From NCBI RefSeq assembly GCF_024718545.1, contig NZ_JAMXDB010000005.1, positions 1 through 64,000 on the forward strand: a stretch of 64,000 nt of DNA, read 5' to 3'. Source of the stretch: Weissella fangxianensis (GTDB lineage: Bacteria; Bacillota; Bacilli; Lactobacillales; Lactobacillaceae). Made by a program: the position numbers and the translations under genes. The notes below the pieces were generated by a model that was given only the letters and a program-made list of their open reading frames with translations, had not been told where the DNA came from and did no database searches. Of the stretch, positions 25,081-36,005 are shown one piece after another. Every line of letters begins with the position of its first letter. Within the stretch, counting starts at the first letter, position 1.

Positions 25081-26283
25081 TCAATTCTTTGTTTTGCGTT
25101 GCATTTTTAGTTTGTAAACATCTAATAATTTTTGGTTCTTATATATCCGCTCCCTAGAATAGTCACGGTGTAAGAACTCGTTGTTATCTAATAGCTTGCG
25201 TATTCCTAAGCGTCGCTTGCCTAATAGCGATTGGTAATGCTGGGTTAGTTTATCGTCACCCAATTGTTTAGCGGCTTCTAACTTATACTTGGCTTCACGG
25301 ATACCACGTTCATATGAGCGCTGACTAGCCTGTTTCTTACCGTTAGCAATTGCTTGTTTCGGGTTGGGTATTTTCGTGTCAGGCACCTTATTAACGCCGA
25401 TAATAAAAGGGGTTAAGGTATGCCGACAATTAATTCCCATCGTCCCACCAGGTTCGCCATAATCATGATCGTATAATGACGCTACATAACCAACATCTGC
25501 TTCGTGACTTTCAAAACCACTTCTTCGCTTGGTAACAACATGCCCCTGTATGGGCGCACAGGCTGGTCGTGAAGCTTCGTGCGCACTCATTATGAAAGTA
25601 TCAACGCCAAGCTCTTCAGCAGCACTTGTGCGCATTTCATTGTATACACGATAAGTTGTAGATGTCATCACAGTATCTGCATATCGTTCAATGGACCATG
25701 TATGCCCACCTTTATCAATAAAACCAGATGGAATACCTTTGTCTATCCATTTCATGACCGTATCAGAGACCGCCTTATCAGGCGATTTAAGCCCTGTTGT
25801 TACTTCTGCGACTGATTGTTCAACTATCTTTTGATAGACCTGCATAACTGGGTTTTTGCCCAAATTAGTGGTCAATAGCGTTTGGTTGACTAGATTGTCA
25901 ATATCTAGGAACGTCTGTTTCGCATAGTTAGATAACGTTTCTTGTACGCTGTTGTAACTTGGTGTGGTTGCATCAGTATCTGCCACAATTTGCTCAGCAG
26001 TATCCTGATAGACCTTCAAGCCTTCGTTTTGGATAATCTCATCAATCAACTCACGAGCAACGCCTGTCTGCTTAGCAACATACGCAATGTTCTCTTCATT
26101 GAGCATGTGCATATCGTTTAGCTTTTCTAGTTGCCACAAGTAAGGGTTATCTTTTAAATCAGCAACACCACGCTGCTTAATTCGTTTAATCATACGAATA
26201 AATAACTCTTGCGCCATATTGCTGTAAATGTCACCAACTACTGAAGCACCTAAAAGCATTTGGTCATCATTTACTTTAGCCAT
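25081..26283 (-). CDS. Minor head protein (Mu gpF-like / minor capsid 2)
   Basis: This 400-aa protein has an N-terminal helical half and a C-terminal region with SAHEASRPACAPIQGHVV and GEPGGTMGINCRHTLTPFI. The conserved His/Cys pattern is shared by Mu gpF-like minor head proteins, which stay in the capsid and may be ejected with DNA. Starts 1 bp inside the portal stop. Confidence 0.85.
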   Translation of the reverse strand: MAKVNDDQMLLGASVVGDIYSNMAQELFIRMIKRIKQRGVADLKDNPYLWQLEKLNDMHMLNEENIAYVAKQTGVARELIDEIIQNEGLKVYQDTAEQIVADTDATTPSYNSVQETLSNYAKQTFLDIDNLVNQTLLTTNLGKNPVMQVYQKIVEQSVAEVTTGLKSPDKAVSDTVMKWIDKGIPSGFIDKGGHTWSIERYADTVMTSTTYRVYNEMRTSAAEELGVDTFIMSAHEASRPACAPIQGHVVTKRRSGFESHEADVGYVASLYDHDYGEPGGTMGINCRHTLTPFIIGVNKVPDTKIPNPKQAIANGKKQASQRSYERGIREAKYKLEAAKQLGDDKLTQHYQSLLGKRRLGIRKLLDNNEFLHRDYSRERIYKNQKLLDVYKLKMQRKTKN

Positions 26284-27791
26284 TATTCATCACCAGATGA
26301 GTCGTTATAAATATCTTGGTCTAAAGCGCTAGGTACAGGTTCAGACTCATCAGCAATCTCCTGTAGTATATCCAACGCTTCATTCTCTGGCACATCAAGT
26401 ATTTTCATAATGGCACGTTTCTTTGAAATCAAACCTGCTGATACTGCTTGCGTGTAGTAAGTCAGTTGCACATTCTTATCAGTGAATACTCCATCATCAA
26501 AGTTAAACTGGATATCGCCAATCTTTGGGATGTCACCGTGGTATAGTCCCTCGGCGGTTGCTAACTCTAAGATAGTGACTACTAACTCCTGTAACGCACG
26601 TTCAACGTTATTCAAGTGTGAGTTACGTGTTTGATAGGTCATAGAGTTCTCAGATACTACTTCAGTCGCTGTCTTTAACCCATTAGCGGCATCAAATGAG
26701 AATGTGCCTGCTGATAAACCAGTCTGCATTTCTAACGTACTGATAAACTGATTAATTGACTGAATGAATTGGTCTGCTCGAATATCCGTTGACAAATCGG
26801 TAATTGTACTATCATCCATGTCACCATTCAAACCAACATAAACATTCTGATCAGTATCAAAGAATTGCACAAATTCACCACGTTCATCAACCATCTTAGT
26901 TAAGCTTTCAGGAACCATGACTCGCCTTTGTCCCATCTTCACCTCCCAGTGGAATTGATCATATGCATCATTGATTTGTTTCAATGTTGAACGGGCATTA
27001 TCAAAGATTGATAATCCTAACGGAGATGTAATATTGCGGTTGTTGAAACCAAATGGCTTTAGATAGACGAATAATGGGCGAGTAAAGTTATCTAGCTCTG
27101 CATGCTCTGCTAAGTCGGCATAGATTTCATTAGCCGATAACGTTTGGCGTACACCTACTTCATTCTTATCCTTTGAACGATACAACTCATTATCAATTAC
27201 GTATTTATCGCCGTTCCATGAATGAAACTCTAGCAACGTCCAGTAAACCGTATCTTGTCCTTCAACTGTGGTTGTTTTTGTTGCAATCGCTGCTTCTGAA
27301 ATATCATTAGCATTTGATTGTAGCGGAAAGAACACGGGTGCTTGTACATAGGCAATCTTAATTTCATCACCATCTACATAAGGGCGCATTGCTAAACCGC
27401 CCAAAGCTAGTCCAGACTCCAAGTAGCGTTCAAAGTTCTTAATGAAATCATTCTTGGAAAACACATCATGAACATATTCATCAGCTGACTTATTATCAGC
27501 AATCGTAAATGTCATCTGCTCATTAACCAACAACGAAGCCATTCGCCTAACCAATACTTGAGCCATGTTTAAGGACGTATATGGACGATGTCTAATCTCC
27601 CCATACGTGTTGCGGTAAGCTACGTCTTTAAATTTACCCTCGAAGTATTTTAAATTCTCACGAATGCGGTCATATTCCGCCTCTGGCACGCCTATTCTTG
27701 GGTGGTCAGTGATGTTGGTTAATGTATTCGTAACGCCCATCTTAGCGCCTCCTCTGCGAAAAAAATTTAAAACGGAATCAACTAACTTCAT
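26283..27791 (-). CDS. Portal protein (SPP1 gp6-like)
   Basis: This 502-aa protein contains LKYFEGKFKDVAYRN, AQVLVRRMASLLVNEQM and TEVVSENSMTYQTRNSHLNNVERAL, characteristic of the SPP1-type portal. Twelve copies form the DNA entry ring at one capsid vertex. AAGGAG lies 7 nt upstream of the ATG. Confidence 0.9.
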   Translation of the reverse strand: MKLVDSVLNFFRRGGAKMGVTNTLTNITDHPRIGVPEAEYDRIRENLKYFEGKFKDVAYRNTYGEIRHRPYTSLNMAQVLVRRMASLLVNEQMTFTIADNKSADEYVHDVFSKNDFIKNFERYLESGLALGGLAMRPYVDGDEIKIAYVQAPVFFPLQSNANDISEAAIATKTTTVEGQDTVYWTLLEFHSWNGDKYVIDNELYRSKDKNEVGVRQTLSANEIYADLAEHAELDNFTRPLFVYLKPFGFNNRNITSPLGLSIFDNARSTLKQINDAYDQFHWEVKMGQRRVMVPESLTKMVDERGEFVQFFDTDQNVYVGLNGDMDDSTITDLSTDIRADQFIQSINQFISTLEMQTGLSAGTFSFDAANGLKTATEVVSENSMTYQTRNSHLNNVERALQELVVTILELATAEGLYHGDIPKIGDIQFNFDDGVFTDKNVQLTYYTQAVSAGLISKKRAIMKILDVPENEALDILQEIADESEPVPSALDQDIYNDSSGDE

Positions 27792-27801
27792 GGTTCACTC
27801 C

Positions 27802-29106
27802 TTATATTTTCAGTTCTAATAGTCGTGCATTATCTAGTACGAAATACTTAAACGCATCAACTGTGTGGTCGTCTACTTTAATTACCTTTGGATCGTCTGT
27901 TTCAACTGTCTTCTCATCCCAACGATAATTACGGTGTTGTTCAATAAATACCTTATTCGATTGATTGTCTAGATAATAAAAACGACCACTCGCTAATAAT
28001 GAGTAGACGCTATCAATCATTGTTGTATTTTTCTTTTTAGCCACTGGATGCCAGCCAATGCGATAATCTTTGAAATACTGATTACGTAATGCTGCTTCAG
28101 CACTATCAATGGTGCGTTTAACGATTGGCAAGTGTCCCCATGATTTAGAAGACTGATTTTTAATAAAATCATGTATTTTAAGTGATAAATCACTGGGTGC
28201 CAGCTTAATTGACTGACCAGCTGGTGAATAATAATACGTATCTAATAAGATAACTTTTTTCTTAGCCGTCACACCAAATAACAATACTGTTGTCGCTGAG
28301 TTAGCATGTCCAGCATCTAACGCATAGGCAACTTGTGTTATTGGATCATCATTTGGTATTTCTTGTAATGGATGAAACATATCCATATTGTAAACATTGG
28401 TTCCTAATCCAACAGCTTCACCTAAAAATTGCCAACGATAATAGTCTGGATCACTAGCTTTTGATTGTTCAATTTCTTTTACATACTGGTCTGATAGAAA
28501 CTCCATCTCATCATCTAGGTATGTCGAATGGTCAACCAGCCAACCATCTATCGTCTTGCGTTCCTCAACCCATTGATTCACCCAATCATACGGGTTTCTA
28601 GGTGGATTATACGAATAAAAGGTGACAACCTGCTTGTTGTTGGGTAGTTTAGCACGAGTATAGGTTAGACGGACTGTATCCACCTCTTCCCAGCTGTCGA
28701 ATTCAGCTAACTCTTCAAACCACAATGAGCTAACATATCCCTTAGCTATTTTCTGTGATTTCTGTTTCATAGGATCATCAACCCCAAAGAAATAAAAACC
28801 ACTGCCTGTTACCCTATCGATAATCTTTAATGGTGAACGCATATATCGAAACCGGTTTTCAAACCCCAGCATAAAGATGGCCCATTTAATTTGCTCATAC
28901 ACTGAACCAGCTAATGTATTACCAACTTTACGAAACACAGCAACATTTGCCATTTTATCTGCTAAAAAATCAGTCACGATTTTAATTGAGATAGCAGATG
29001 ATTTAGTTGAAGCTCGACCACCTTTCAACACAAAATTTGAATACTCAGGACGAAAGAACAAATAATCAAAATGTGGATTACTTAAATCAGCAACATTAAT
29101 CTTCAT
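27802..29106 (-). CDS. terL: Terminase large subunit
   Basis: This is a 434-aa packaging ATPase and nuclease of the PBSX type. Walker A is GGRASTKSS near residue 30; Walker B with adjacent Glu is in [11 protein letters not shown]; the nuclease half includes [15 protein letters not shown] and [16 protein letters not shown] start at 29136 is possible, but the ATG at 29106 follows AAAGGA at good spacing. Overlaps the small subunit by 11 bp. Confidence 0.92.
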
Positions 29107-29968
29107 TATCCTGTCCTTTCTTTTGCCTTTCTTCAAATACTAAGTGAATCTCATCATAGGCACTAGAATCTTCTATATACTCCTTAGCCTTAGCTTCTGC
29201 CATATCAGCTTCAGCTTTTGCTTTTCGTACCTGTGCATGTTGCATATCGTCTGGTGTTAGCTTATTCAACTCTTCAAGCAACTTCTTTTGTGCTGCCTGC
29301 TTATCGTATAGATCAAGCACAACACCATCACGACCAATTGACACCTTTTTAATTAAGCTTGTATCAACCTTTGACTTGTCTTTGAGTTGCACCCACGAAC
29401 GATGAGATATTAACGGCTTACCGTCCTTGTCCATCACATCTTTACCGTAGTCATCCTTAATAGAGACATTATTTTTACCAAAGTCCAAATAGTCCCCAAT
29501 GTCTGAAAACGCCTGCTTCATAAGGTTTGCTAAAATATCTTCCTTATTAGCGCCTAGGTCATGTAAACGTGCTTGTCTCATCTCTTGAACCAGAGATTTA
29601 ACCTTAGCGTTTCTTAGCATCTTAGAACCGTTAACCATTGCCGTGTCATAGTCCGCATCATACACATTGATATATGCTTGCGTAGCATTGAATAGTCTCA
29701 CATATTCGATAACAAAAGCTTTTTGCTTATCAGTCAATTCACTATCAGCTAGTTCATCAATGACCTGTTCCACTTCATTTTCGGGTGCACCCTTTTTGCT
29801 TTTTGTGTGCACACTTTTTTGAGGCGGTGCACTCTTATTTCGCACCCACTCATAACGCCTTTTCCAACTCTTAACCGTATTGATTGTTACACCATACTTA
29901 TCGGCTATGTCTTTGTACTTCATACCAGCGTTATAATCTTGTTCTGCGTTTTCCCACTTCTCGGTCAT
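29096..29968 (-). CDS. terS: Terminase small subunit
   Basis: This is a 290-aa protein: N-terminal helix-turn-helix ([23 protein letters not shown] then NTVKSWKRR), a linker, a terminase small subunit core ([32 protein letters not shown]), and a charged helical C-terminus. It recognises the packaging site and feeds the large subunit, encoded directly downstream. Confidence 0.9.
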
Positions 29969-30170: not shown

Positions 30171-30416
30171 CTAATCTAATTTATTCTGTATTTCTTTTTG
30201 TATCTCCATTGCTTTTATATCGCTTCTAATATTACCTTCCTGGTCTATGTCATCTTTATATCTATTACTTCCTAATATATTTTCGATGTCCTTAGGAAGT
30301 AATGCCGTTTTACCACCATCATTACTGAAATACCAAACATTACCACCATTTTTTGCACCATTGCCAAAAGGTAATTTGTTATTATCTTCACGTACCTTTA
30401 ACTCTACTTTTTTCAT
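30171..30416 (-). CDS. Hypothetical phage protein
   Basis: This 81-aa, AT-rich frame starts MKKVELKVREDNNKLPFG. GGGGGG lies 6-7 nt upstream of the ATG. It contains NVWYFSNDGGKTALLPKDI, suggestive of a small beta-hairpin plus helix. Flanked by its own promoter and a terminator, so it is an independent unit between the late regulator and terminase. Function unknown. Confidence 0.6.
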   Translation of the reverse strand: MKKVELKVREDNNKLPFGNGAKNGGNVWYFSNDGGKTALLPKDIENILGSNRYKDDIDQEGNIRSDIKAMEIQKEIQNKLD

Positions 30417-30445
30417 TTTTAAATCCCCCCTGTAATATTACTTGA

Positions 30446-30474
30446 ACGATACAATAATAATATTTAAAAGTCAA
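30446..30474 (-). promoter_or_regulatory. Promoter of the 81-aa gene
   Basis: On the minus strand TTGACT (30474-30469) and TATCGT (30451-30446) are separated by 17 bp, 30 bp upstream of the start codon at 30416. The -35 is good, the -10 weak. Confidence 0.5.
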
Positions 30475-30478
30475 TCTA

Positions 30479-30577
30479 TGCAAGCGGTTAGGATTTGCAC
30501 CTAACAACGAATAAATCACTGGTCTGTGCCTATTCAACACTGGTATTTACTGCGTCTACCTATTCCGCCACGCTTGC
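30479..30577 (-). tRNA. tRNA-like sequence (class II, Leu-like), degenerate anticodon arm
   Basis: On the minus strand GCAAGCG and CGCTTGC form a perfect 7-bp acceptor stem with discriminator A. GGCGGAATAGGTAGACGC matches the D arm of bacterial tRNA-Leu, and TTAGG-TGCAAAT-CCTAA is a good T arm with G instead of the usual second T. The middle 47 nt do not give a regular five-pair anticodon stem with a seven-base loop; a long variable arm (GAATA/TATTC, CAC/GTG) is possible. It could be a decayed or atypical phage tRNA. No amino acid is assigned. Confidence 0.4.
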
Positions 30578-30673
30578 TATGTAGAACAGTGATTGGCAGT
30601 AGTCACACGTACAAATAATAGAGGGATAGAATCATCTAACCAACTGTTCCACAATACCTATTATGCGCTGTTT

Positions 30674-31123
30674 TCAGGCTTGTAACCGCCGTTTATCCGC
30701 CACAATACTGACACCGTTTTCGACTGTTGAATATAAATGACCTGCAATACCGCTTTTGAAATCATCTCGCCATCTTAAACATGTCCGTTCCCCAATGTGC
30801 TCATTCAATGATATTTCAACCCAACTTTGATTTTTGCCGTAGTAGGCTTTCAACACTCGCTGTTGTTTTGCAATGGTAATGACGTAAAACGAGTCTATGA
30901 TGTCTTTTTGCAATATCCATTGTTGTAGTTGCGTGTCTCTTTGCTCACGTATCATGCGCAGTTCTACTGGATTGTTGTAATCGTTTTGCTTACGTCCACC
31001 ACCAATGTTCTCGTCAGGTGTGCGATCACTATTAAATCGCAATTCCATTTTGCGCAAACGGATATTAGTTGCTAATCTACCTGTAAAATAATCACTCAAT
31101 AACTTATCTAACCTATCCGCCAT
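30674..31123 (-). CDS. ArpU/RinA-type late transcription regulator (DUF722-like)
   Basis: This 149-aa protein starts MADRLDKLLSDYFTG; GGGAGG is well placed for the ATG at 31123 (an upstream in-frame start at 31138 is weaker). It ends with a helix-turn-helix-like stretch (EISLNEHIGERTCLRWRDDF) and a basic tail. Position between replication and packaging modules, size and pattern fit regulators of late gene expression such as ArpU, RinA and DUF722 proteins. It probably activates the terminase-to-lysis transcript. Confidence 0.75.
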   Translation of the reverse strand: MADRLDKLLSDYFTGRLATNIRLRKMELRFNSDRTPDENIGGGRKQNDYNNPVELRMIREQRDTQLQQWILQKDIIDSFYVITIAKQQRVLKAYYGKNQSWVEISLNEHIGERTCLRWRDDFKSGIAGHLYSTVENGVSIVADKRRLQA

Positions 31124-31248: not shown

Positions 31249-32268
31249 TTATATGAGATGTGAGTTAGAAATTGATTTAATGTAATCTTCCATAAATTGC
31301 CAATTAATGTTTCCATCATCAGAGAGAGGAATCATTATTTTTTGTCTTACCAAACGATTATCAGAAATTTCTCTATTAAAAGAAAAGTTTCCATGCAAGG
31401 ATTGTTCAATACATGCTATTAGAAACGCTGCATTATATTTGTTCAGTCTCCTATGTGATAATGCAGTAACATGGTCAGAAACTATAGTAGTGTATTCATG
31501 ATAGAAAGCTCGTCCAACTGAACCACTATTGTTTATTCCGATAAAATTTGCGAAAGATCTATACCGTTTGTTTGGAGTAGAAATATAGTTATCCACTCCG
31601 TTATTAAGAGCGGTAGAAGATATATATGGAATATCTCCTTGTTGTTGTCCAGCTTTTATAAGCCGTTTCCCTCGTTGGATAGAGTCGAAAATTTTTGAAA
31701 TAGGTAATAGAGCCCAGGAAATAGTATCTAAGCCTATCCTACTTGGGTTGCTAGGTTCTAATATAGGGACTTTAATAGTTTTCATTATATTTATAATATA
31801 TTGTTCCATATAATCCCAGTTAGGTTGATTATTGGGGGACTTTGGTAACATTATTCTATCTTGTTTTAGATGAGGCAAAGTGCGTTTATAACCAAAACTA
31901 TATTTTGAACGAAGCATATTAGCTGATGTCGCGACAAATATGCCTGTATAAGGATTAATTTTTTCAGAATAGGCCGCTGCAATGTTCACAGTGCCGATGA
32001 AACTATCCAATTTGTATAAAGCATATCCCACAGAACCATCACCGTCATTTATAAAAACTACTGTGTTTCCTTTTGTTTCAATTTGTGTGTTTCTTTTTGT
32101 AAATTTAACAATTCCGCCATTTGTGTATTTGGCTCCCACGTAGCCTATATCGATTCCTGATGGTAGTTCAGAAGCGTTACTTACTTTCCCTTTTTTAAAT
32201 TTAAATAACTCATCTAATTTAAAGTCTCCCCACTCTACTTCGTTCAGATTTGGTAGAGTGGGTTCTAT
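31249..32268 (-). CDS. BcgI-like specificity subunit (B/S), likely expressed by -1 frameshift
   Basis: The frame encodes about 339 aa with two target-recognition halves. The first opens WGDFKLDELFKFKKGK and continues GYVGAKYTNGGIVKF, the usual start of type I S and BcgI B subunits; the second starts near residue 180 (WALLPISKIFDSIQRGKRL). Each half ends with LP-x-W-x-YMEQYI or W-x-FMEDYIK helices. No ATG, GTG or TTG exists before the conserved N-terminus: the first is a GTG at 32139, 43 codons in. The frame meets the preceding gene in the -1 phase at an A7 run. Either ribosomes shift, or an ATA (32268) is used. Coordinates give the whole open part. Confidence 0.75.
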   Translation of the reverse strand: MEPTLPNLNEVEWGDFKLDELFKFKKGKVSNASELPSGIDIGYVGAKYTNGGIVKFTKRNTQIETKGNTVVFINDGDGSVGYALYKLDSFIGTVNIAAAYSEKINPYTGIFVATSANMLRSKYSFGYKRTLPHLKQDRIMLPKSPNNQPNWDYMEQYIINIMKTIKVPILEPSNPSRIGLDTISWALLPISKIFDSIQRGKRLIKAGQQQGDIPYISSTALNNGVDNYISTPNKRYRSFANFIGINNSGSVGRAFYHEYTTIVSDHVTALSHRRLNKYNAAFLIACIEQSLHGNFSFNREISDNRLVRQKIMIPLSDDGNINWQFMEDYIKSISNSHLI

Positions 32269-32290
32269 TTTTTTGTGGAGTTTACCTCTT
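32229..32290 (-). promoter_or_regulatory. Putative programmed -1 ribosomal frameshift site (RM to S)
   Basis: In the zero frame the gene ends ACA AAA AAA TAG, so A_AAA_AAA (32274-32268) is in the correct X_XXY_YYZ phase, directly before the stop. AAGAGG (32290-32285), a Shine-Dalgarno-like stimulator, lies 10 nt upstream, as in E. coli dnaX. Five nt downstream begins a perfect 10-bp stem, CCCACTCTAC (32262-32253) with GTAGAGTGGG (32238-32229), and a 14-nt loop. The -1 frame enters the specificity subunit. Confidence 0.75.
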
Positions 32291-34220
32291 CATCAAACAA
32301 ATAACCCCTGCCATGGACAGTTTGGTCAAATTTAAAAGCTAAATAATCTTGTACAGTTTTTTCAAACGCATCAGGTTTTGGGATTGAATCGTTAAAATAG
32401 AAATAGCTATGTAGCCATTCATCCTCTGGTGTAATGGCCGATTTTACCATAAAAGATGTTTCCGATGGCAAATCATAAAGTACCGTGTCTACTAGTTTTT
32501 TCCTTTTAGTAGCAGCATATCCATTATCCTGTAGACCTAAATGCTTTTTAACAATCCATCCGTCATCTTTAAAATTAATGAATTTAACTTGTTTTTGATC
32601 AGGATGCGGCTCCTTTGCTGTGAATAAAGCAATAACGGGTTCTACACCGGCACGTTGGCCATGAAAAGTATTTGGATTAAGCGTAATGACAGCATCTAGT
32701 GAATGTTTTTCTAGAATAGCTTGCTTGATTTCTTTCTCAATTTTACTTTTCCCTGTCATTGTAGACGGAGGAACAATTACTGCCAGTTTTCCGCCTTTTG
32801 CACTAATATCCAGTGCGTGTTTTATGAAATTAATTTCGTATAAACTAGGATTTGACTTTGAACCTTGACTATAGGGAGGATTCATTAGTACTTTTGTAAT
32901 AGGTACTGGAGTAGTTCCATCTTCACTTATGAAGTCTTCGGCCGTTTTAGAAAACATATCATCTAGCATTAAATTAGATTTACCATCACCACGTAATATC
33001 ATATTAGTTGTTGCAACAGTGTACATTTTTTCTTGCATTTCTATTCCAAAAAGTTGATGCTGCTTAATGTGACTATTTGAATACTTAGTTTTTGCATCAA
33101 ATGGTTCTTTCATCATACTGTTCATAGCACTAATTAAAAACGATCCGCTGCCTGCCGTAGGATCAAGAACATAGTCATTTCTACCAACTTGAATTAATTC
33201 AGTCATGAGGCTCGTAATATGTTTTGGCGTTAAAACGATTCCCAAACCATTTCCATCACTGTCACCATACTTAACAAATTCTCCGTAAAAATTCCCAAGA
33301 ATATCAAATTCAGTATTATTTTTAAAATGTTCTAAAACATTTGATTTTAAAATTGATGCAAAATAGCGAATTGGTGTCATTCCTAAATCTTGACGCTTTT
33401 GGTTTAAAGCAACGTTGGTCTTAATAAAAGAAAATTTATTTAGTACAATGCTTCTTTTTTCTTCTGGCAAGATTGCCCGATCTTCCATATAATCCTTAAC
33501 ACTTCTATAAATTAGTGACCCATCAGTAGGACGGGCTCTCCCCTTTAAATCCTCTAAATTTAAAATGTTACTATCTAAAGCTAATAAAATAGCGCTGACT
33601 ACAGTTGCTTTATTCTCCCCCTCTAAACTCGCATACTTTCTTAGTTCTTCATGTAAACGTGCTGCTATTTTCTTAAATTCTAACTCATCTTTCTGTTCTT
33701 TAGAAATATCTCCTAAAACATTGACACCGTACCATTCATCAAAATTAGCAGATGAAAATACCTGCCAATCATCAACCTTACCTACATTTTTGATAGTAGT
33801 ACTTTCCCCATCATTTGTTACAGAATATGCCAACGTTTCTCTAACGTCACTCGATCCTACAGCACCTATGGCAATAACGTCTTTAAAATTGGTAGTTTTC
33901 TCTACAATATTTTTAGCATAATGAACTGCCCCATTAACGGCATAGTTAGCCGTTGCTTTAGGAATAGATAAATCAACTTCACCTTTATCGTCTAGCATAA
34001 TTAGGTTTGACTTTGAATATTTATCTTCGACCACAACTAATGTATCGTTAATCAAAAAAACAAATTCGGGCTTACCTGCTCCCTTACCACCTTGTTTACT
34101 GGCATTTTTTAGAGCTGTTTTCACTTCTTTGATGGAAGAAGTTTGCTCAGTATATTCAATGCCTAGGCTCTCTATTTCTCTTCTGACCCATTGATCGGCA
34201 TTGGTTTTTTCATTAGTCAT
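32265..34220 (-). CDS. BcgI-like restriction-modification subunit (nuclease plus adenine methylase)
   Basis: This is a 651-aa protein. The N-terminus carries a PD-(D/E)XK-type nuclease: PE at about 51-52 and VVVEDK at about 62-67. A helical linker follows, then a type I-like N6-adenine methyltransferase with DPTAGSGSFL (near 352) and NPPYSQ (near 443). Size and order match BcgI subunit A of type IIB systems, which cut on both sides of the site and need a separate specificity subunit. The ATG at 34220 follows AGGAG; a TTG at 34229 is less likely. No separate HsdR-like helicase is present. AT-rich, with its own terminator: an inserted defence cassette. Confidence 0.85.
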   Translation of the reverse strand: MTNEKTNADQWVRREIESLGIEYTEQTSSIKEVKTALKNASKQGGKGAGKPEFVFLINDTLVVVEDKYSKSNLIMLDDKGEVDLSIPKATANYAVNGAVHYAKNIVEKTTNFKDVIAIGAVGSSDVRETLAYSVTNDGESTTIKNVGKVDDWQVFSSANFDEWYGVNVLGDISKEQKDELEFKKIAARLHEELRKYASLEGENKATVVSAILLALDSNILNLEDLKGRARPTDGSLIYRSVKDYMEDRAILPEEKRSIVLNKFSFIKTNVALNQKRQDLGMTPIRYFASILKSNVLEHFKNNTEFDILGNFYGEFVKYGDSDGNGLGIVLTPKHITSLMTELIQVGRNDYVLDPTAGSGSFLISAMNSMMKEPFDAKTKYSNSHIKQHQLFGIEMQEKMYTVATTNMILRGDGKSNLMLDDMFSKTAEDFISEDGTTPVPITKVLMNPPYSQGSKSNPSLYEINFIKHALDISAKGGKLAVIVPPSTMTGKSKIEKEIKQAILEKHSLDAVITLNPNTFHGQRAGVEPVIALFTAKEPHPDQKQVKFINFKDDGWIVKKHLGLQDNGYAATKRKKLVDTVLYDLPSETSFMVKSAITPEDEWLHSYFYFNDSIPKPDAFEKTVQDYLAFKFDQTVHGRGYLFDEEVNSTKK

Positions 34221-35570: not shown

Positions 35571-36005
35571 TTAAAATCCATAAACAACAATTGCACTCGG
35601 AAATGGTGCTGCGTCCATTGCTTTTCCATTAAGCTCAAACTTAAGTCGACCTTTCAAAAATTTTACAATACTTTTGTTTTGAATAAACTCATGCCAATAA
35701 GTCGTATCAGTTCTTGAAGGTATTAGCATTACAATGAATCTATTCGGATCACGCAAATGTTCTTTATAGGCTTTTTCAATAAATTTATTGATAGACCTAC
35801 CATAAGGCGGATTCATGAACACATTTCCATCCCACTTTTGAGTTAAAGCATCGTCCATTTCTGTGAAGTATTTCTCTAATTTGTGGTTTTCAACACTTGC
35901 ACATGCATCTAAATCGAATTTAAACTTTTTGTTTAATTCTATAAATAAATCGTCTGGAGTTTCCCAACTCATATTTTTTGAACTAAATAACACTTTGTTT
36001 ACCAT
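35571..36005 (-). CDS. Phage DNA N6-adenine methyltransferase (Dam family)
   Basis: This 144-aa protein has SWETPDDLFIELNKKFKFDLDACAS, then the catalytic NPPYGRSI motif and a C-terminal PFPSAIVVYGF, the pattern of the short phage Dam methylase family. There is no partner endonuclease beside it, so it is an orphan methylase. It may protect phage DNA from host restriction or tune regulation. It is distinct from the methylase domain of the downstream RM gene. Confidence 0.9.
   Translation of the reverse strand: MVNKVLFSSKNMSWETPDDLFIELNKKFKFDLDACASVENHKLEKYFTEMDDALTQKWDGNVFMNPPYGRSINKFIEKAYKEHLRDPNRFIVMLIPSRTDTTYWHEFIQNKSIVKFLKGRLKFELNGKAMDAAPFPSAIVVYGF

Follow-up and report, generated by a model that had tools for sequence, protein, structure and literature searches.

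Restriction enzymes must fix the ratio of their catalytic to their recognition subunits, and the known solutions are to encode the two in separate genes or to join them in a single fused chain. Within the BcgI-type IIB systems, such as BcgI and the system of phage phi42 (which we take to be Sau42I), one chain (RM) combines a nuclease with an N6-adenine methylase, and a second chain (S), the DNA-recognition subunit, carries two TRDs; the class is further characterised by cutting to either side of the recognition site. This is also the composition of the system described here, whose RM is 48.6% identical to that of phi42 and whose gene order is the same; however, the phi42 S gene begins with an ATG in the +1 frame that overlaps the RM stop and its junction has no slippery heptamer, whereas the S considered here lies in the -1 frame and has no start nearby. 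In the sections of a review that deal with these enzymes, the BcgI-like group is given as 2RM:1S, and the mode of action of a fused two-TRD chain is called a "mystery", the count being 1RM:2TRD (PMC3874165). In AloI, TstI and CjeI, according to the portions of two papers that describe these single-chain type IIB enzymes, RM and S are covalently joined (PMC3874165, PMC4027205), an arrangement that resembles the RM-S product predicted below.

The window, that is, the whole stretch of 64,000 nucleotides from Weissella fangxianensis that was analysed, has the following features at its R-M locus:

32265..34220, minus strand: RM gene, 651 aa, with ATG at 34220 and a TAG stop; predicted BcgI-like nuclease-N6-adenine methyltransferase
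32285..32290, minus strand: AAGAGG, putative Shine-Dalgarno (SD)-like stimulator, 10 nt 5' of the heptamer
32268..32274, minus strand: candidate slippery heptamer A_AAA_AAA in zero-frame phase, abutting the TAG; an equivalent site occurs in the relatives L013 and L053-L055
32265..32267, minus strand: zero-frame TAG stop of RM
32229..32262, minus strand: putative stimulatory stem-loop, CCCACTCTAC / GTAGAGTGGG, with a 14-nt loop, 5 nt 3' of the heptamer
31249..32268, minus strand: S coding region in the -1 frame, with two TRDs; I + 338 aa, reached by a shift at A7

The RM protein matched the Pfam family N6_Mtase (1.7e-33) and, over residues 2-642, the PADLOC model REase_MTase_IIG (5.6e-195), and P50-E51, E64, K66 and N446-P-P-Y449 are invariant across seven aligned RMs. 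As in the BcgI-like enzymes, a single chain bears an N6-adenine methylase and an N-terminal nuclease of the PD-(D/E)xK type, and the protein is presumably active as a nuclease. The S protein matched PADLOC Specificity_II (1.2e-35) and Methylase_S (3e-30), the latter in two stretches that correspond to the two TRDs expected of a BcgI-like type IIB/IIG subunit. A search of solved structures related RM to type I M subunits, similar methyltransferases and RM.BsaXI (12 sequences), and gave no match for S. The pair departs from both described arrangements: S is not a separate gene with its own start, as a BcgI-like S would be, and RM and S do not form one continuous ORF as in AloI and TstI, the TAG at 32267-32265 intervening and the frames differing. 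Both genes lie on the minus strand of a prophage whose terminase small and large subunit and portal genes are found at 26283-29968; comparison of the window with phage records returned none that is near. The same prophage encodes a phage Dam-type N6-adenine methyltransferase at 35571-36005, some 1.4 kb away from the R-M pair. The stretch 30460-30580, which lies between the terminase genes and the R-M pair, has a tRNA-like look, and ARAGORN reported no tRNA at 30300-30800.

The original prediction read the RM/S junction as a programmed -1 frameshift, and the parts of the signal that it named are all present: AAGAGG 10 nt upstream (32290-32285), A_AAA_AAA immediately ahead of the TAG and in zero-frame phase (32274-32268), and a perfect stem of 10 pairs (32262-32253 / 32238-32229) 5 nt downstream. 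RM ends in ACA AAA AAA TAG, and the spacer before the stem is TAGAA. A 101-nt fold at the junction gave -22 kcal/mol (z -3.04), equalled by none of 200 shuffles, and the 55-nt fold of the survey described below gave z -3.5. The claim that the -1 frame encodes an S with no ATG, GTG or TTG ahead of its conserved N-terminus was likewise borne out, as this frame is open from 32289, contains none of these codons between 22 nt upstream and 128 nt downstream of the RM stop, and has its first at GTG 32139, inside TRD1. The predicted shift product comes to 651 + 339 = 990 aa, in agreement with the length first given for an R-M-S chain beside the 651-aa R-M protein. The upstream ORF ends with the X_XXY_YYZ pattern of a frameshift site in zero-frame phase (A_AAA_AAA before TAG), and the junction also has the SD-like element upstream and the stem about 5-8 nt downstream that are expected of such a signal; evolutionary conservation of the signal, a further expected property, was also observed.

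Conservation is evident in the alignment of homologous loci that had been proposed as a check, in which heptamer and stem arms are kept in L013 (Enterococcus sp. MMGLQ5-1, RM 80% identical to the window RM) and in L053-L055 (RM 57% identical, a single junction sequence in three IMG/VR contigs). The L013 junction reads ACA AAA AAA TAA, with stem arms as in the window, and that of L053-L055 reads TCA AAA AAA TAG; its stem has 11 bp, and GAGG stands 10 nt upstream. An exact A7, its phase, a 4-5 nt spacer and the stem arms are retained in these relatives; the loop, the stop (TAG or TAA) and the TRDs vary. In a 13.9-kb query from the contig of L054 (which is also L122), up to 69% of the length matched Listeria phages. 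The stem arms are made up of the codons of P-T-L-P and V-E, which do not differ among the window, L013 and L053-L055; the loop codons do. Among codons for identical amino acids in the same three RM genes, 99 of 325 are identical (11 of 95 where the residue is P, T, V, A or G), and the rough chance of stem-arm codon identity across three such diverged systems is about 2e-5; the constraint on these codons is more than chance. At the level of sequence, the signal, the startless open -1 frame, the two TRDs and the conservation of the signal in diverged systems are established.

A wider view of RM/S junctions was obtained by similarity search. A first scan of viral contigs with the window RM alone found no relatives, and an alignment used as query returned 59 loci. 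The window S protein, searched against 100 genomes, gave besides the window only distant and partial matches, and RM was therefore chosen as the query. A fixed stem pattern had 0 matches and a gapped pattern matched 15 contigs, among which are the three of L053-L055. The survey started from 229 loci, several of them from one contig, with those from the S search (L001-L012) and the pattern search (L115-L129) left out; 16 were dropped for an unmatched RM end and 6 for fewer than 150 nt following, and the 207 that were kept collapsed to 114 non-redundant junctions at a limit of at least 90% identity over 120 nt. The sample was drawn via similarity to a few queries and is no census; a first pass preceded the choice of class limits.

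Among the 114 junctions, S lies in the +1 frame in 52, in the -1 frame with a start at -12 to +20 in 23, and in the -1 frame without a start in that interval in 15; an in-frame extension of RM by 140 aa or more occurs in 21, and no S runs across the remaining 3. A heptamer in phase and ending no more than 15 nt from the stop was found in 13 of the 15 startless -1-frame junctions versus none of the 52 +1-frame junctions, and the other classes gave 4/23 (-1 with a start), 1/21 (in frame) and 0/3 (no S). A GGGAAAG that stands 24 nt before the stop in L246, ahead of a stem, raises the startless total to 14/15, and an earlier pass over 112 junctions, with about 45 nt upstream scanned, found a single +1-frame junction with a heptamer (L186, at -36). 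Fisher's p of 5e-12 for 14/15 against 4/75 comes from hand-entered counts and serves as a guide only. The four heptamers in the class with a start belong to the junction of L013, to L050, to L253 and to L145 (an ATGA overlap, with TTTAAAT at -12).

The frameshift type was defined as 18 junctions, the 15 without a start plus those of L013, L050 and L253. Their heptamers are A_AAA_AAA (5), A_AAA_AAG (3), G_GGA_AAG (6) and G_GGA_AAA (3), and one has none. Possible S starts are a GTG at -22 in L013, where an SD at the usual distance is lacking, a GTG at -1 in L050 and an ATG at +14 in L253, and there are possible starts far upstream in L203 (-55) and L241 (-52). The S frames measure 338-400 aa except for L114 (209 aa), those of L254 and L224 being cut by the contig end. 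L114 is also the junction with no X_XXY_YYZ heptamer (GGATTTTTAA); its S is in the -1 frame with no start and a stem is present, and it may represent a decayed copy or slippage on the TTT found at the stop.

Downstream structure was assessed on the 55 nt that begin at the second base of the stop, with L142 (the locus of L246) grouped with the other junctions. The mean z was -3.6 in 17 frameshift-type junctions (14 below -2) versus 0.0 in 75 others (5 below -2; Mann-Whitney p 3e-9), and the stems no better than shuffles were those of L133/L253 (z -0.2), L205 (-0.7) and L135/L241 (-1.3). In ten junctions the 3' arm consists of the codons of a V-(E/K)-W-G-like motif and the 5' arm covaries with it: at pairs 8, 9, 11 and 12 both sides vary with pairing kept in 8 or 9 of the 10 rows, and 1 of 5000 arm shuffles reached the observed pairing, which is understated by a window row that is out of register (outermost pair A.G). 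Since the 5' arm tracks the 3' arm, the stem is no mere by-product of coding for this motif. SD cores ending exactly 10 nt before the heptamer occur in 7 of the 18 frameshift-type junctions (8 of 18 at 9-11 nt); the background from 385 three-nt windows further upstream averaged 0.55 and never exceeded 4. The spacing in dnaX is 10 nt. No SD core was found near the junction in L253, L254 and L205, and the best SD core of L013 lies 7 nt upstream. SD hybridisation energy did not differ between frameshift-type and other junctions, L246 having been measured at the wrong place, and the other junctions need an SD to start S. Homologue conservation, the heptamers of the survey, the stems and the SD peak at 10 nt together support the original prediction of a programmed -1 frameshift, and also support its extension from one locus to a recurrent feature of a family.

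The alternatives that had been raised with the prediction (ATA initiation, transcript slippage, phase variation and sequencing error) are a poor fit to the homologues. It is improbable that S is a separate protein, begun at a non-canonical ATA overlapping the TAG or by termination-reinitiation. An ATA does occupy the same position in the window, L013 and L053-L055, and many relatives begin S by an overlap at the RM stop; however, no SD stands 5-10 nt from the window ATA, the equivalent -1 codon is GTA or another in L220 and in the E. coli copies, and a separate start leaves unexplained both the heptamers, absent within 15 nt of the stop in all 52 +1-frame junctions, and the stems, which have no counterpart in the mean z of the 75 others. 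Harder still to credit is slippage of RNA polymerase on A7, by which a fraction of the mRNAs would carry A8 and fuse RM and S. Although the tract is a homopolymer and the protein product would be nearly the same, in 9 of the 18 frameshift-type junctions G_GGA_AAG or G_GGA_AAA replaces A7 with no homopolymer run, so that polymerase slippage is not the common mechanism, and a stem ahead and an SD behind exert their effect on ribosomes. Least credible is a sequencing error, a pseudogene or a phase-variable A tract, under which RM and S would be one uninterrupted RMS gene, with A8, in the true or ON state. One base would join the frames and in-frame fusions occur in the family, but 18 non-redundant junctions, among them some from complete E. 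coli genomes, share this frame relation, and 17 of the 18 have a heptamer; the tract is exactly A7 in L013 and all of L053-L055, and the five in-frame fusions scanned have one TRD, not two.

As to TRD number in the family, two were found in each of the six frameshift-type S proteins scanned (of 18, the window included), and one in each of the five scanned in-frame fusions (of 21). The latter, L018, L030, L035, L248 and L252, are natural fusions of RM with half an S, as are L023 and L033, and one of the scanned one-TRD fusions is a close sister (81%) of a frameshift-type system. In L144 / L247, RM and the first TRD are in frame; next come a run of TDRQ repeats (a tetranucleotide repeat) and then one more open frame, which is in a different phase, an arrangement that looks phase-variable.

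In a tree of 100 RM proteins, built by a quick method and with some long branches, the frameshift types divide between two clades with a deep separation. That of the window has 3 frameshift-type rows among start-type relatives; the second has 15 together with 5 start-type and 3 in-frame rows, and there A_AAA_AAG, G_GGA_AAG and G_GGA_AAA take the place of A7 and many stems are strong and covarying. The tree implies at least 7 label changes (shuffled mean 16.9), and repeated origin, loss, or exchange of the junction plus S as a module are possible histories of the frameshift types. L139 and L138 have RMs that are 97% identical and are both of the frameshift type, and their junctions and S N-termini differ, which suggests module exchange.

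The carriers include the A. haemolyticus plasmid CP085285, in which S spans the start of the record, and E. coli phage PhiR12_3, in which S is annotated 180 nt after RM. A match was found in 29 of 5426 complete E. coli genomes, in 20 over at least 80% of the query, and the junctions examined, from 7 of the 29 and from PhiR12_3, have heptamer and stem in 8/8, of two kinds. S is marked incomplete or as a pseudogene, with N- and C-terminus missing, in 2 of the 7 genomes, and in the other 5 its start is set 33-75 nt after the RM stop. Frameshifting, if true, would explain why annotation cannot start such S genes, and mis-started S subunits would become readable. In the E. coli loci L231-L237 the R-M genes lie in prophage-like regions, and L231, L232 and L235 each adjoin tRNA-Ile/tRNA-Arg/tRNA-Arg genes.

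The window, then, very probably holds a prophage-borne BcgI-like (type IIB/IIG) R-M system whose S is expressed through programmed -1 ribosomal frameshifting. Most ribosomes would terminate at the TAG and yield the 651-aa RM. A fraction would be paused by AAGAGG behind and the stem ahead, two tRNA-Lys would re-pair one base back on A_AAA_AAA, and translation would enter S to give the 990-aa RM-S. We infer that this fusion is made and that RM and RM-S pair as RM.RM-S, with one S per two RM units as in the 2:1 ratio of BcgI; the shift rate would then set the amount of S and hence of active enzyme. The shift may serve stoichiometry, for which the EcoKI M-S fusion offers a precedent, and the TRD counts fit a proposed rule that a two-TRD S must be under-supplied relative to RM.

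More broadly, we think it reasonably probable that -1 frameshifting has evolved separately and recurrently in BcgI-like R-M systems of Bacillota and Pseudomonadota, on prophages, plasmids and chromosomes, that it makes RM and RM-S from one gene pair, and that RM.RM-S, with two RM per two-TRD S, assembles as made. Such enzymes would be intermediate between the two-chain and single-chain forms, and the shift rate would act as a translational dial on restriction. If this is true, both forms come from one mRNA, fused and free RM coexist, and the family has a novel means of setting the subunit proportions of a restriction enzyme, and with it a point of translational control in an anti-phage system that can be tested directly.

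In the parts of two papers that treat them, the frameshift sites of dnaX, phage lambda G/T, IS911 and IS150 have, as in the window, a heptamer, an SD-like element upstream and a stem generally 5-8 nt downstream (PMC4066793, PMC5009743); none of these genes is a restriction enzyme, whereas the shift in the window would add a DNA-recognition subunit. The passages on heptamers in the first of these give C_CCA_AAG, G_GGA_AAG and A_AAA_AAG as the most efficient in E. coli, with A_AAA_AAA below X_XXA_AAG, count A_AAA_AAG and A_AAA_AAA together as 72% of IS-element heptamers, and describe G_GGA_AAA as "inefficient" in one place and "more efficient" in another (PMC4066793); the corresponding section of the second calls G_GGA_AAG highly shift-prone (PMC5009743). 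The original prediction knew of no restriction system using frameshifting, and the literature searched agrees: there was no report among the best matches in openly accessible papers (for two queries the best 20 of 29,756 and of 521), and none in the sections covered of the GeneTack survey (PMC3711429) and the recoding review (PMC5009743), so that novelty may be claimed provisionally. The nearest parallel to a pairing of fused with free chains is an engineered EcoKI HsdM-HsdS fusion which, in the part of the report concerned with it, was active in vitro only with added HsdM and was functional in vivo, which the authors tentatively attribute to stray HsdM (PMC3510504). That fusion was made by mutagenesis, whereas the two forms in the window would arise from one natural gene pair via frameshifting. 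In AloI, TstI and CjeI, every chain is an RMS from one ORF, at 1RM:2TRD, whereas the window system would make free RM as well.
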